Of a stretch of DNA of 49,754 nt, positions 32,597-44,602 are shown piece after piece. This DNA is from Algicola sp. (GTDB taxonomy: Bacteria; Bacteroidota; Bacteroidia; Flavobacteriales; Flavobacteriaceae). The notes under the pieces were generated by a model. The model saw only the letters and a list, made by a program, of their open reading frames with translations. It did not search any database and was not told the origin of the DNA. The stretch covers positions 1 to 49,754 of the forward strand of contig JAAEZN010000014.1 in assembly GCA_018222835.1 (NCBI GenBank), read 5' to 3'. The position numbers and the translations under genes are program-made. The stretch's first letter is position 1; each line of letters starts with the position of its first letter.

Positions 32597-32619
32597 ACAT
32601 TTTGAAATTAGTAAACCGC

Positions 32620-35600
32620 ATGTTGCACAAAATAGATATAAAGGAATACACAACCTTATCTGGTCATACGCAAGAAATTAAACTGTCGTATCAGTTGTTC
32701 GGAAAGCCATTGCATTCGGCGCCGATCATTCTTGTAAACCATGCCTTGACAGGTAATTCGAACGTTGCCGGAGAAGGTGGTTGGTGGTCCGATTTGATCG
32801 GGGATGGAAAGTGTATCGATACAAAAAAGTACACCATTTTATCATTTAACATTCCAGGTAATGGTTATGACGGTTTCATTATTGAAAACTATAAGGGCTT
32901 TGTTGCCGGGGATATCGCTAGAATATTTCTATGGGGACTTAGGGCCTTGGAAATCGAAAAATTGTTTGCCATAATCGGAGGTTCGTTGGGAGGTGGAATT
33001 GCATGGGAAATGACTGCCATTGACCCAAAGATAACCGAGCATTTGATTCCTGTAGCTTCCGATTGGAAATCTACGGATTGGTTGATTGCCAATTGTCAGA
33101 TTCAGGAGCAGTTTTTGGTCAACTCCAAACAACCGGTGCACGATGCACGTATGCATGCGATGTTATGCTACCGTACCCCGGAATCATTTAAAGAAAGGTT
33201 TAAAAGAAGTACCAACGAAGAACTTCAGGTATTTAATGTAGAATCTTGGTTGATGCATCACGGTAAAAAGTTACAAGAGCGTTTTCAACTTTCTGCCTAT
33301 AAATTAATGAACCAATTGCTCAAATCCATCGATATAACCAGAGATGGAGAAGAAGCATTTAACGCCTTGCAGGAAGGCGATACCAAAATCCACATAATCG
33401 GGGTAAACTCCGATTTGTTCTTTACTGCCGAAGAAAATAAGGAGACCTTTAAAAGATTGGCTCAGGCCAATACCAATGTTACTTATGGCGAAGTACAATC
33501 CGTACATGGCCACGATGCCTTTTTGATGGAGTTTGAACAATTGGAGAAATTGTTGTCCACTGTATTTCAGAAGAATACGGAGCGCATCAAAATTTTAAAA
33601 TTTGGTGGAAAATCTTTGGCAAACGGCGAAGGAATTGAACGTGTTTTGAATATTATTGGTAAAAGACATGATGAGCAAGAACATTTTGCAGTAGTAGTTT
33701 CTGCGCGCGGTAAGGCAACGGACCAATTGGAGAACCTATTGGAAAAAGCGGTCAACGGGGAAGACTTCCAAAAAGATTTGAAGAAGTTTGCCGAATACCA
33801 AAAAAATAATTTTGATGGTGTGGACATAGCCGAAGAACTGTCCGTGATCGAAAAAATATTGAGCGGGGTAACATTAACAGGCGATTACAGTCTAAAAACC
33901 AAGGATGAGGTACTGTCCTTCGGTGAATTGATATCTGGAAAATATGTTACTGCTGCCTTGCAGGCAAAAGGGGTTAAGGCTACTTTGCTCGACTCTCGAC
34001 AACTCATAAAAACCGACGATAGTTTTAGCAATGCCGAGGTAGATGAAGGGCTGTCCAAAGAAAATGTGCTACGATATTTCCATGAGCTGGATTCGGACAC
34101 CGTACCTGTGGTAACCGGGTTTATAGCCTCCAATAAGAATGGGGCAACCACTACTTTGGGAAGAAATGGAACAAATTATTCAGCAGCTCTGTTGGCCAAT
34201 TTTTTGGATGCAAGCGAGTTGATCAATTACACCCATGTTGATGGTATTTTTACCGCCAATCCCGATTTGGTGAAAGATGCTAGGTTAATCGATATGATTT
34301 CTTACAGTGAGGCGAATGAACTCGCTAATTTTGGTGCCACCATTTTACACGCAAAGACAATTATCCCCTTGATCGAAAAAAACATTCCATTGCGTATTTG
34401 CAATACCTTCAACGATGATAATGAGGGTACCTTAATTGGTCCAAATACGGGCGATGGTGGCATAAAATCCCTTTCCGTGTTGGATAATATGGCCCTTATC
34501 AATCTTGAGGGTAGGGGGTTGCTCGGTAAAGTTGGTGTGGATATGCGTATTTTCAGGGCCCTTGGCCAAAACGATATCTCCGTTGGAATTGTTTCCCAAG
34601 GATCATCAGAGAGAGGTATTGGTTTGGTAGTGGATGTCTCCAAGGCGGATAAGGCAAAGAAAGTACTCGATCAGGAATTTGAGACGGACTATTCATCGCA
34701 GGATATCAATAAAATATCCGTGGTGAAGGATGTTTCCGTCATTTCCATTGTGGGTATGGACTTGAGCAGTTTTCATAAACCCTTCAATGCCTTGGTCAAA
34801 AACCAAATCACACCCTTGCTGTTCAACAACACGGTGACAGGAAAAAATGTGAGCATGGTGATGAAGAAAACCGATCTGCACAAAGCCATAAACGTGATTC
34901 ATGGGCAAATTTTTGGTATCGCAAAGAAGATTAACTTGGCTTTGTTCGGTCATGGTAATGTGGGGGGAACACTGATCCATCAGATTTTGGATTCAAAAAA
35001 TACGATCGAGGACAGAAAAAGTATCGATTTAAAAATATTTGCAGTGTCCAATTCAACAAAAGTACTATTGGATGCTTCGGGTATTGGTGCCGATTGGAAA
35101 GAACGTTTAGAGAAAGAGGGGCAGCAATACTCCAATGAGGATATTATTTCTTTTGCCAAAAAGCATCATTTGGAAAACTTGATCGCTGTGGATAATACCG
35201 CAAGTAAAACATTTGTGGAGCAATATGAAACCTTGATCGAGCATGGTTTTGATCTGGTGTCATCCAACAAGATTGCAAATACCTTGAGCTTTGATCAATA
35301 TAAATCCATACGAAAGTGTTTAGATCAAAATCAAAAACAATACCTGTACGAAACCAATGTGGGTGCAGGTCTTCCACTTATCGATACAATTAAACTACTG
35401 CATCTTTCCGGTGAGAATATCACTCGGATTAAGGGGGTGTTTTCAGGGTCGTTGAGTTATATTTTTAATACATTTTCCGAGAAAGATGTCTCTTTTTCCG
35501 AAATTGTAAAGGAAGCTATGGAAAATGGGTTTACAGAACCTGATCCTAGGGAAGACCTGTCCGGAAACGATGTAGGAAGAAAACTTTTGATTTTGGCCAG

Positions 35601-36000
35601 GGAGTTGGACCTTCAGAACGAGTTCGCGGATATTGAAGTGCAAAATTTAATTCCAGAAGAGCTTGTAACCTTGGATTTTAAGAACTTTATGGAACAAATT
35701 GAAAAGATGGACACTGTTTTTGAAAAGATAAAGAAGGACCAGAAACAAGGCCATGTATTACGATATGTTGGGGATTTGCATGGAGATTTGCAACAGGACA
35801 AAGGAGTTTTGGATGTAAAACTCGTCTCTGTGCCCAAAGAGAGTGCATTGGGCCAGGTAAAGGGCTCCGATTCGATCATTGAAATTTATACGGAGTCCTA
35901 CGGAGAGCACCCACTTGTGATTCAAGGTGCGGGAGCAGGAGCTGCTGTTACGGCAAGAGGTGTATTTGGCGATATTTTAAGAATAGCAGAAAAGATATAA
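32620..36000 (+). CDS. triple fusion: homoserine O-acyltransferase, aspartokinase, homoserine dehydrogenase
   Basis: An 1126-aa protein with three enzymes in one chain. Residues 1 to about 320 are a MetX-type alpha/beta hydrolase: nucleophile Ser122 in GGSLGGG, Asp265 in NSDLFF, His298 in HGHDAFL. Residues about 322-765 are aspartokinase (ILKFGGKSLANGEG, then two ACT-like units such as LINLEGRGLLGKVGV and ISIVGMDLSS). Residues about 768-1126 are homoserine dehydrogenase (LALFGHGNVGG NAD site at about 776, VSSNKIANTLS, GVFSGSLSYIFNTF, FTEPDPREDLSGNDVGRKLLIL). The chain makes aspartyl phosphate, later homoserine, then acyl-homoserine. ATG at 32620 was chosen over a TTG six codons upstream. Confidence 0.93.
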   Translation: MLHKIDIKEYTTLSGHTQEIKLSYQLFGKPLHSAPIILVNHALTGNSNVAGEGGWWSDLIGDGKCIDTKKYTILSFNIPGNGYDGFIIENYKGFVAGDIARIFLWGLRALEIEKLFAIIGGSLGGGIAWEMTAIDPKITEHLIPVASDWKSTDWLIANCQIQEQFLVNSKQPVHDARMHAMLCYRTPESFKERFKRSTNEELQVFNVESWLMHHGKKLQERFQLSAYKLMNQLLKSIDITRDGEEAFNALQEGDTKIHIIGVNSDLFFTAEENKETFKRLAQANTNVTYGEVQSVHGHDAFLMEFEQLEKLLSTVFQKNTERIKILKFGGKSLANGEGIERVLNIIGKRHDEQEHFAVVVSARGKATDQLENLLEKAVNGEDFQKDLKKFAEYQKNNFDGVDIAEELSVIEKILSGVTLTGDYSLKTKDEVLSFGELISGKYVTAALQAKGVKATLLDSRQLIKTDDSFSNAEVDEGLSKENVLRYFHELDSDTVPVVTGFIASNKNGATTTLGRNGTNYSAALLANFLDASELINYTHVDGIFTANPDLVKDARLIDMISYSEANELANFGATILHAKTIIPLIEKNIPLRICNTFNDDNEGTLIGPNTGDGGIKSLSVLDNMALINLEGRGLLGKVGVDMRIFRALGQNDISVGIVSQGSSERGIGLVVDVSKADKAKKVLDQEFETDYSSQDINKISVVKDVSVISIVGMDLSSFHKPFNALVKNQITPLLFNNTVTGKNVSMVMKKTDLHKAINVIHGQIFGIAKKINLALFGHGNVGGTLIHQILDSKNTIEDRKSIDLKIFAVSNSTKVLLDASGIGADWKERLEKEGQQYSNEDIISFAKKHHLENLIAVDNTASKTFVEQYETLIEHGFDLVSSNKIANTLSFDQYKSIRKCLDQNQKQYLYETNVGAGLPLIDTIKLLHLSGENITRIKGVFSGSLSYIFNTFSEKDVSFSEIVKEAMENGFTEPDPREDLSGNDVGRKLLILARELDLQNEFADIEVQNLIPEELVTLDFKNFMEQIEKMDTVFEKIKKDQKQGHVLRYVGDLHGDLQQDKGVLDVKLVSVPKESALGQVKGSDSIIEIYTESYGEHPLVIQGAGAGAAVTARGVFGDILRIAEKI

Positions 36001-36001
36001 C

Positions 36002-36062
36002 TTCGAATACGCTCAACTACTGTACTTTAAAATCTCTGTTGGCTGAGCGTAGTCGAAGCCAC
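36002..36062. repeat. inverted pair of GAGCGnAGTCGA palindromes
   Basis: TTCGAATACGCTCAACTAC at 36002-36020 and GGCTGAGCGTAGTCGAAGCC at 36041-36060 are inverted copies of one core and start one base after the fusion gene stop. The first copy is worn (its own outer stem is lost). Together they could form a longer hairpin after the operon. Confidence 0.6.
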
Positions 36063-36116
36063 AATAGTTTGTTCGTTTAGGGTTTTGATGGTGTAGTTTC
36101 GACTCTGCTCAACTAC
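36041..36116. mobile_element. 76-bp miniature element, likely deletion derivative of the GIY-YIG cassette
   Basis: The left hairpin (GGCT...AGCC around GAGCGTAGTCGA) is followed by CACAATAGTTTGTTCGT, which also follows the hairpin at 36179 with one mismatch, right up to the nuclease start codon. After about 17 further bases comes an inverted right hairpin, GTAGT-TTCGACTCTGCTCA-ACTAC. So it has both ends of the cassette and no gene. Confidence 0.6.
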
Positions 36117-36178: not shown

Positions 36179-36554
36179 GTGTCTGAGCGTAGTCGAAGAC
36201 ACAATAGTTTGCTCGTGAAAGGTTACGTATATATATTACAATGTTCAGATGGTAGCTATTACACCGGAAGCACTGTTGATTTGGACAAGCGGTTGCGAGA
36301 GCATCAAAATGGAAAAGGAGCCAATCACACCAAGAAAAGATTGCCTGTTATATTATTGTATGTTGAAGAGTATTTGAGTATTGCAGTGGCTTTTGAACGT
36401 GAAAAGCAAATTCAAGGGTGGTCACGACCAAAGAAAGAAGCTCTTATTAATGGCGAGTTTGAGGTTTTGCCTTATTTGTCTGAATGTAAAAACGAAACGA
36501 ACTTTAAATATTATAAAGAAGAAAAATGAAGTAGCTTCGACTCCGCTCAGCTAC
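36179..36554 (+). mobile_element. GIY-YIG gene bracketed by inverted palindromes
   Basis: The left end is the hairpin GTGTC-TGAGCGTAGTCGAA-GACAC (36179-36202). The right end is GTAGC-TTCGACTCCGCTCA-GCTAC (36531-36554), inverted, 2 bases after the nuclease stop. The gene fills the space between. Read as a unit this resembles REP sequences flanking a RAYT transposase, but with a GIY-YIG nuclease in place of the tyrosine transposase. Confidence 0.55.
36215..36529 (+). CDS. single-domain GIY-YIG nuclease
   Basis: A 104-aa protein consisting of one GIY-YIG domain (UPF0213/UvrC-N type): GYVYILQCSDGSYYTGSTVDL holds the two short motifs (Tyr pairs and Gly), DKRLREHQNGKGANHTKKRLP holds the catalytic Arg and a basic helix, and AFEREKQIQGWSR holds the metal-binding Glu. 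The active site is complete. Two starts are possible: GTG at 36215, which matches family N termini (MKGYVYIL), or GTG at 36179, which would translate the left palindrome itself. It has no homologous neighbours and splits the methionine gene cluster, so it is probably an inserted gene. Confidence 0.85.
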   Translation: MKGYVYILQCSDGSYYTGSTVDLDKRLREHQNGKGANHTKKRLPVILLYVEEYLSIAVAFEREKQIQGWSRPKKEALINGEFEVLPYLSECKNETNFKYYKEEK

Positions 36555-36573: not shown

Positions 36574-36597
36574 GTGACTGAGCGTAGTCGAAGTCAC
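36574..36597. repeat. palindrome, GAGCGnAGTCGA type
   Basis: GTGACTGAGCGTAGTCGAAG plus TCAC; the outer 5 bp GTGAC and GTCAC pair exactly. It has the same core as 36179 but a different outer stem. It lies 20 bases beyond the cassette right end. Confidence 0.7.
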
Positions 36598-36661: not shown

Positions 36662-37822
36662 ATGAAAAAATTTGAAACAGAGGCGATTCGCACACAAATA
36701 GAGCGTAGTCAAAATTTGGAGCATTCCAGTCCCATTTATATGACCTCCAGCTTTGTTTTTGAAGATGCAGAGGATATGCGGGCCTCTTTTGCCGAAGAAA
36801 AGGAACGGAATATTTACTCCAGATATTCCAATCCCAATTCATCGGAATTGATTGAAAAAGTTTGCCAAATGGAAGGAGCAGAAAGCGGATTTGCCTATGC
36901 TTCGGGTATGGCGGCTGTTTTTTCCACCTTGGCAGCCTTGTTAAATGCCGGGGATCATATTATATCTTCCAAGAGTATTTTTGGATCTACGCATAGTTTG
37001 TTTACCCAGTTTTTCCCAAAATGGAATATTGAAACCAGTTATTTTGATGCCAGCGATTTATCTCAAATCGAAGGGTTGATCAAACCAAATACAAAAATCC
37101 TATATGCGGAAACCCCGACCAATCCTGGGGTGGATGTTTTAGATCTGGCCGTTTTGGGACAGATTGCCAAAGCACGTGGACTTATATTTATTGTGGACAA
37201 TTGCTTTGCGACCCCATATTTACAGCAACCTATAAAGTTCGGGGCCGACTTGGTCATCCACTCAGGGACCAAGTTAATGGACGGGCAAGGCAGGGTACTG
37301 GCCGGAATCACCGTAGGTAATGGTGACCTAATGGATAAAGTATATCGATTTTCAAGGATTACAGGGCCTGCATTGTCTCCCTTTAATGCTTGGGTATTGT
37401 CGCGAAGTTTGGAAACCTTGGCTGTTCGGGTTGATAGACATTGTGAGAATGCTCTGAAATTGGCTGTCTATCTCGAAGGTCATAAAAAGATTGAATGGGT
37501 CAAGTACCCCTTTTTAAAATCACACCCAAACCACGAGATTGCCAAAAAACAGATGAAAGCCGGCGGATGTGTTGTTGCTTTCGAGGTCAAGGGCGGTCTG
37601 GAAGCAGGCAGGGAATTCTTTAATGGAGTTCAATTGTTGTCCCTATCGGCCAACTTGGGCGATTCGCGAAGTATAGTAACCCACCCAGCTTCTACAACAC
37701 ACAGCAAGCTTACCACCGAAGAACGCAATGCCGTTGGTATATCGGATGGTATGGTGCGGGTATCCGTAGGCCTTGAGCATATTGATGATATTATTTCGGA
37801 TATTGAACAGGCCTTGGGATAA
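36662..37822 (+). CDS. metZ: O-succinylhomoserine sulfhydrylase-like PLP enzyme
   Basis: A 386-aa enzyme of the Cys/Met metabolism PLP family. Landmarks are EAIRTQIERSQNLEHSSPIYMTSSF, SRYSNPNSSELIEKVCQMEGAESGFAYASGMAA, DNCFATPYLQQP, the Schiff-base lysine in HSGTKLMDGQGR (Lys204) and HPASTTHSKLTTEERNAVGI. The sequence is closest in feel to MetZ, which adds sulfide to acyl-homoserine, but cystathionine gamma-synthase or a lyase cannot be excluded. With metY upstream, two acyl-homoserine sulfhydrylases would be present. It is cut off from the fusion gene by the GIY-YIG insertion. Confidence 0.82.
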   Translation: MKKFETEAIRTQIERSQNLEHSSPIYMTSSFVFEDAEDMRASFAEEKERNIYSRYSNPNSSELIEKVCQMEGAESGFAYASGMAAVFSTLAALLNAGDHIISSKSIFGSTHSLFTQFFPKWNIETSYFDASDLSQIEGLIKPNTKILYAETPTNPGVDVLDLAVLGQIAKARGLIFIVDNCFATPYLQQPIKFGADLVIHSGTKLMDGQGRVLAGITVGNGDLMDKVYRFSRITGPALSPFNAWVLSRSLETLAVRVDRHCENALKLAVYLEGHKKIEWVKYPFLKSHPNHEIAKKQMKAGGCVVAFEVKGGLEAGREFFNGVQLLSLSANLGDSRSIVTHPASTTHSKLTTEERNAVGISDGMVRVSVGLEHIDDIISDIEQALG

Positions 37823-44576: not shown

Positions 44577-44602
44577 GGTCCCTGAGCGAAGTCGAAGGGT
44601 CC
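44577..44602. repeat. palindrome, GAGCGnAGTCGA type
   Basis: CCCTGAGCGAAGTCGAAGGG with partly matching outer bases (GGT...TCC) in the 68-base gap between cobA and the reductase gene. Core is as at 36179 with A at the variable position. Confidence 0.65.

Follow-up and report, generated by a model that had tools for sequence, protein, structure and literature searches.

An intact GIY-YIG nuclease gene between inverted members of a dispersed hairpin repeat family in the Flavobacteriaceae

The window analysed here, the whole stretch of 49,754 nucleotides from an Algicola sp., forms one contig, C21, in a genome of 3.52 Mb (G000). A small gene at 36215..36529 on the forward strand is intercalated between two others on the same strand, conserved across the genus as its left- and right-side neighbours: one at 32602..36000, which we take to be a metX-thrA fusion, and one at 36662..37822, presumably encoding a metZ-like PLP enzyme, both names being assigned from sequence. 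The small gene begins with a GTG codon at 36215, a start backed by relatives, many of which have ATG in the equivalent position, and ends with a stop codon at 36527-36529. Its 104 aa product matches the GIY-YIG profile PF01541 with 66.8 bits, against a cut-off of 22.6, and R26 and E63, which we take to be the catalytic arginine and glutamate of GIY-YIG enzymes, are invariant both in 47 aligned relatives and in 136 aligned rows; its initial annotation as a complete, single-domain GIY-YIG nuclease is thereby upheld. The solved folds closest to its AlphaFold model (pLDDT 87.2) are 1zg2 and 1ywl (UPF0213), then Slx1, and the small UPF0213/YhbQ-YazA-like GIY-YIG proteins represented by these two PDB entries are the closest solved proteins in sequence as well as fold. 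Judged by this protein, the closest named relatives among the best 80 of 343 matches belong to Flagellimonas, Muricauda and Allomuricauda, with identities of 81-83%.

Hairpins built on a shared 14-base core with one free position, TGAGCGNAGTCGAA, lie at both ends of the gene. The left one (36179..36202, +; stem GTGTC from 36179, core 36184-36197) begins 36 bases 5' of the GTG, and the right one (36531..36554, -; stem from about 36531, core 36536-36549) is inverted relative to it and lies directly 3' of the stop codon, in agreement with the positions and opposite orientation originally assigned to them. The description of the layout as two inverted flanking hairpins stands as far as it goes, yet understates the arrangement: the gene is situated within an alternating array of six cores, at 36002(-), 36044(+), 36098(-), 36184(+), then, beyond the gene, 36536(-) and 36579(+). 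The last of these (hairpin 36574..36597, +; core 36579-36592) forms a -/+ doublet with the 36536 core; a relic of the gene start downstream of it is not claimed, the score of 10 falling below the 99% level of random stretches, 11. The first (35998..36019, -; core 36002-36015, one mismatch) is decayed and overlaps the stop codon of thrA with its 5' arm. Downstream of the second (36040..36061, +; core 36044-36057) lies a relic of the gene's start and the leader preceding it, identical at 21 of 25 bases to 36200-36224 and scoring 17 against the same 99% level; the random maximum of 31 probably comes from a stretch overlapping the GIY-YIG gene itself. The third (36093..36116, -; core 36098-36111, one mismatch) is likely, on this sequence evidence, to be the right end of an internally deleted unit starting at 36040. 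A lone intergenic core is also found at 44583..44596 (+), giving seven in the window with at most one mismatch, where 0.01 are expected from 100 shuffles. Individually, the hairpins have no exceptional folding stability as DNA (z -0.81 to -1.82), and the case for folding rests on the covariation of their stems.

Across the whole genome there are 32 exact cores, as against none for a reversed-pattern control; they are mostly intergenic, and the stem enclosing them, of about 4 bp, varies and covaries between copies. Thirty of these came with a locus and 29 with full flanks, and in these 29 copies the mean stem pairing is 4.2 bases, compared to 1.5 after redealing the 3' flanks (maximum 2.6 in 2000 shuffles), with 24 distinct five-base stems represented. 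Over the five stem pairs, 84.1% of cells are paired versus 51.6% in shuffles, and the covariation score is 0.899 versus 0.271, neither value being reached in 500 shuffles; stems slid along the sequence as controls give at most 46.2% pairing. Two of the five covariation measures, the number of double-change pairs and the number of pair types, do not rise above shuffles in these copies. The consensus also reveals a tendency for GG to precede the stem immediately. A fixed core within a freely chosen but paired stem is the pattern expected if a folded single strand, rather than duplex sequence, is being read.

Twenty-eight copies lie outside the unit, two of them without a locus; of the 26 counted, six fall inside an ORF of at least 120 aa and 20 outside, though such ORFs cover 83% of the sequence (P 3e-11). 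Most dispersed copies in this genome are single, inverted doublets being found in the window array and, in other genomes, at two loci described below. Some cores occur within longer repeats, namely GTCATTTC..TGAGCG.AGTCGAA..GAGAAATCT at L014, L015, L021, L022 and L034, and GTCATT(C/T)C..GGAATC at L026, L032 and L216. A RAYT is rejected as the agent in this genome, in which the Y1 transposase profile PF01797 has no match, bearing out the contrast drawn at the outset between the PF01541 enzyme here and the tyrosine enzymes of RAYT systems. The Y1 profile is found in 10 of 60 genomes of the genus, among which its presence has no clear association with the number of cores (p 0.09).

The association between gene and hairpin extends well beyond this genome. 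Relatives were taken from a protein-only scan, as the best 80 of 343 matches, of which two were too near a contig end, and the remaining 78 were scored for a core with at most one mismatch within 150 bp of the gene. A core was present upstream in 59, downstream in 67 and on both sides in 55, the orientation of the nearest cores among these 55 being +/- in 40, ++ in six, -+ in five and -- in four. In controls drawn from the same loci, a core was found in 20 of 2178 windows, and cores on both sides in none of 436 frames; hence it is neither the case that most homologues lack the hairpins nor that these are equally common everywhere, the two outcomes named beforehand as telling against a link. 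Two-sided cores also accompany 42 of the 61 relatives in this set with less than 75% identity, 28 of them in the orientation seen in the window. The relatives include Flavobacterium, Chryseobacterium, Arenibacter, Aequorivita and one MAG labelled Sulfurovum, and in some, such as Arenibacter, the gene is part of an alternating array that repeats about every 89 bases. The contig labelled uncultured Sulfurovum (L106) carries a class-A gene, as defined below, with cores on both sides, representing either transfer between phyla or a mis-binned contig.

These frequencies weigh heavily on the suggestion that the hairpins are ordinary RNA features, such as terminators or mRNA stabilisers, that flank a small gene by chance. 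Their intergenic position and ability to fold would suit such a role, but a terminator does not need a strict 14-base core with a free stem, the individual hairpins are weak, and neither their polarity and inverted placement nor the excess of flanking cores over control windows is accounted for, making this explanation highly improbable.

Other GIY-YIG genes of the genus bear other inverted flanking repeats, as revealed by alignment of 70 loci, four of them too short. These comprise a class B (GTCAGGTCGAGCGCAGTCGAGACC), an A-like class (GTCAGGCTGAGCGCAGTCGAAGCC), a class C (CGTCACTTCGAGTG...GTATCGAGAA) and classes D to G, with fewer examples; class G (TTTCCGCGAAGGCGGAAATC) flanks the GIY-YIG clade of L183 (346-371) and L185, and, as a lead only, seems to resemble the NTS/dRS3-type repeats of Neisseria. 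Among 141 loci, a set that leaves out nine repeating others, 64 have class A on both sides, 13 have class B on both sides and 12 have no class. On a tree of 136 nuclease proteins, built from 103 columns and containing some long branches, the seven classes of the 94 two-sided rows, defined after the flanks had been inspected, require seven changes, the minimum being six. Adding one-sided labels raises this to 10 changes, and treating 'none' as a group gives 20, as against 54.5 in shuffles. As judged from these alignments, repeat class is found to follow nuclease clade, and the enzyme seems to evolve jointly with its repeat, as one unit.

The gene in the window is the only one of class A in its genome. 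A second single-domain GIY-YIG gene is present on contig C3, at about 56.8-57.2 kb (L003:1427-1849), with an intact tRNA-Asn(gtt) directly downstream (1780 onward in the locus) and a broken piece of the start of the same tRNA upstream, an arrangement suggesting the insertion of a unit at a tRNA gene. At G017:C1:510178-511108, three similar GIY-YIG matches follow one another at a spacing of about 363 bases, as tandem copies of a gene unit.

Sixteen of the 17 class-A genes in the genus sample lie directly after thrA, the exception being L129, while in other genera the gene neighbourhoods are different. At the thrA/metZ junction of 30 of the 43 gene-less genus genomes, 23 are flush (fewer than 20 bases), five have 26-132 bases of other sequence and two carry only a hairpin doublet (L188 and L199). 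In the unit-bearing genomes inspected, the site, the orientation and the left boundary, at the thrA stop, are identical, and in the sister examples the first hairpin has an arm that contains or adjoins this stop codon. Four sister pairs with and without the unit (L125/L197, L126/L192, L119/L190 and L123/L187) are 84-99% identical in all stretches up to the junction, and such pairs are about 88-97% identical right to the junction itself. On a tree built from 49 thrA rows (19 bearing the gene, 28 lacking it, counting the five short-sequence sites as flush, and two doublets), presence of the unit requires 17 changes, at least 11 of them on starred branches, no fewer than for shuffled labels. The unit is thus a discrete module, present or cleanly absent at one site and patchy even between sister species; this patchy distribution, together with the near identity of sister pairs up to the junction, implies that it comes and goes there. 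The comparison with empty sites proposed in the initial annotation yields a flush absence at 23 of the 30 gene-less junctions.

One reading of this pattern is that of a mobile unit similar to REP/RAYT, in which the GIY-YIG enzyme would itself excise and insert DNA bounded by hairpins, acting in cis on its own gene and in trans on the dispersed copies. The inverted ends framing the gene, the flush and doublet-only sites, the turnover on the thrA tree, the intact sequence of sister pairs right to the junction, the different neighbourhoods in other genera, the apparent internally deleted copy at 36040-36116 and the lack of a Y1 transposase in this genome are all consistent with it. The dispersed copies are less so. 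Six dispersed sites were compared with G052, the nearest genome compared with this one: four with aligned flanks and two chosen for having an exact core in one species only, with the partially aligned L024 left out. An orthologous hairpin, sometimes decayed, is found at all six, and no empty site is seen among them; the ortholog of the core at 44583 has one core base changed besides the free position. Recent movement of the dispersed copies is rejected for these old, orthologous sites. Distances between the genes also track those between thrA sequences over 20 genus loci (Pearson 0.78, median ratio 0.97; thrA-metZ 0.83), which suggests long residence and repeated loss, and no target duplication is seen at the thrA/metZ junctions inspected. 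GIY-YIG enzymes act by hydrolysis and are not known to form a covalent intermediate with DNA, so rejoining would need other enzymes. The original proposal that the nuclease moves the hairpins is so far unsupported, on several counts: orthology of the dispersed copies, divergence of the gene in step with thrA and metZ, absence of target duplication and presence of a single gene of its class in the genome. Self-mobilisation of the unit is possible, and the full mobile-unit reading is rather unlikely. Long-range horizontal transfer into the site is likewise rejected, as in no pair does the gene stand out as being much closer than thrA.

A short sequence, ATATGAGC, is common to nine of the 23 flush junctions, which are interspersed, and would not be regenerated if the present unit were simply deleted. 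This raises an alternative in which two old junction alleles, one flush and one unit-bearing, swap by homologous recombination, in a homing-like or a passive manner, with the nuclease not making the repeats. The constancy of site, orientation and left boundary, the junctions that deletion could not regenerate and the divergence of unit-bearing genes in step with thrA all favour such an exchange, but no divergent imported tract is seen beside the junction in the sister pairs, and such an exchange leaves unexplained the clade-specific inverted repeats that accompany GIY-YIG genes located elsewhere; allele swapping as the whole explanation is somewhat unlikely. Short-tract exchange between flush and unit-bearing alleles does fit both the evidence for long residence and the flush junctions. 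The ATGAGC of these junctions (L186, L187, L191, L192, L194, L195, L196, L200 and L204) shares TGAGC with the start of the core, a likeness that may be due to chance, since ATGAGC codes for Met-Ser.

The relationship between the gene and the abundance of its repeat was studied across the 60 genus genomes. The 17 with a class-A gene have a median of 22 class-A cores, and the 43 without it a median of eight (p 2e-4); a class-B gene is likewise associated with more class-B repeats (16 versus 44 genomes, p 3e-5), while tests crossing the two classes are weaker (p 0.03 and 0.21). The class-A association weakens on removing three or five copies from each gene-bearing genome (p 0.002 and 0.008), as does that of class B on removing two or three (p 0.004 and 0.04). 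When nearest pairs are taken from the thrA tree, the gene-bearing genome has more cores in 13 of 16 (p 0.011), falling to 11 of 16 after subtraction of three copies (p 0.105, Wilcoxon 0.02) and 10 of 15 after subtraction of five (p 0.15, Wilcoxon 0.05). Of the three exceptions among the 16 pairs, two are the doublet genomes, G005 and G044, both of which carry an A-like gene. Only seven strictly independent pairs lie on well-supported branches, and these are uninformative as to gene and copy number; many gene-less genomes retain cores, up to 62. Gene-bearing genomes therefore appear richer in cores, less clearly so once the flanking copies are subtracted.

The reading we favour is that the GIY-YIG nuclease probably recognises and nicks the TGAGCGNAGTCGAA hairpin in single-stranded DNA, gene and repeat forming a co-evolving pair. 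The predicted target would consist of the fixed 14-base core, a freely chosen but paired stem and GG just 5' of that stem; the enzyme would read the core in the hairpin when the DNA is single-stranded, then nick it. The gene would be maintained between inverted copies of its own target, with further targets dispersed intergenically. Cutting might then steer short-tract exchange, for example with transforming DNA entering the cell or with DNA of the lagging strand, and the patchy gain and loss of the unit at a single site would thereby be explained.

Several known systems share parts of this arrangement. The Ssn family, reportedly described by Chenal et al. in Nature Communications in 2025, is said to consist of GIY-YIG site-specific single-stranded-DNA nucleases, with the NTS repeats of Neisseria as a target; Ssn of Neisseria reportedly acts on NTS and affects transformation. 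On that description, the resemblance would lie in a single-domain GIY-YIG protein with intact catalytic residues and a short cognate repeat of which each genome has many copies. The system described here appears to differ from Ssn in its Bacteroidota host, in having a fixed core inside a covarying stem, in placing the gene between inverted copies, often in alternating arrays, and in its presence/absence alleles at one site. The earlier statement that no established description of GIY-YIG proteins in such a role existed was accordingly not quite right, repeat-recognising GIY-YIG nucleases being reportedly already represented by the Ssn family. No account of this particular GIY-YIG/hairpin system was found in the literature searched, and the core, sought there in six spellings, none of them with C at the free position, gave no match. 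Free-standing GIY-YIG homing endonucleases cut the empty allele; as with these, a nuclease gene lies here between two conserved genes and gene-less alleles occur in relatives, but the target forms part of the unit and also occurs dispersed, and the flush junctions have only TGAGC of the core, in nine of 23.

The closest parallel in layout is REP/RAYT (TnpA-REP), in which, according to PMC2817692, an ORF lies between two inverted repeats, imperfect palindromes with compensated stems and a short unpaired 5' head, GT(A/G)G, are dispersed, repeat class follows enzyme clade and the enzyme is single-copy. Inverted flanks, compensated stems, a short 5' head, a match of class to clade and a single-copy enzyme are all shared with the system as set out there; the differences are a GIY-YIG enzyme (PF01541) in place of a Y1/HUH transposase, a head of GG instead of GT(A/G)G and fewer copies, at 32. 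The short-spacer inverted doublets that surround the gene, and that stand by themselves at the two empty sites (L188 and L199), are similar to REPINs as presented in PMC3116915, in contrast to which most dispersed copies in this genome are single. The locus is thus best filed as a repeat-linked GIY-YIG nuclease with a REP/RAYT-like layout, for which a transposition reading is possible but unproven. A broader proposal, of a Bacteroidota-wide GIY-YIG counterpart of REP/RAYT in which each clade has its own hairpin code of fixed core and free stem, mobilising or homing its own gene and maintaining dispersed hairpins without a transposase of known class, is put forward tentatively and as rather doubtful.

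The nuclease is a likely partner enzyme for short hairpin repeats of Bacteroidota. The matched pairs of enzyme and repeat, with classes A to G in one genus, may reveal how GIY-YIG domains read their target, and sister species that differ in whether one site carries the unit would make the spread of such repeats directly testable.
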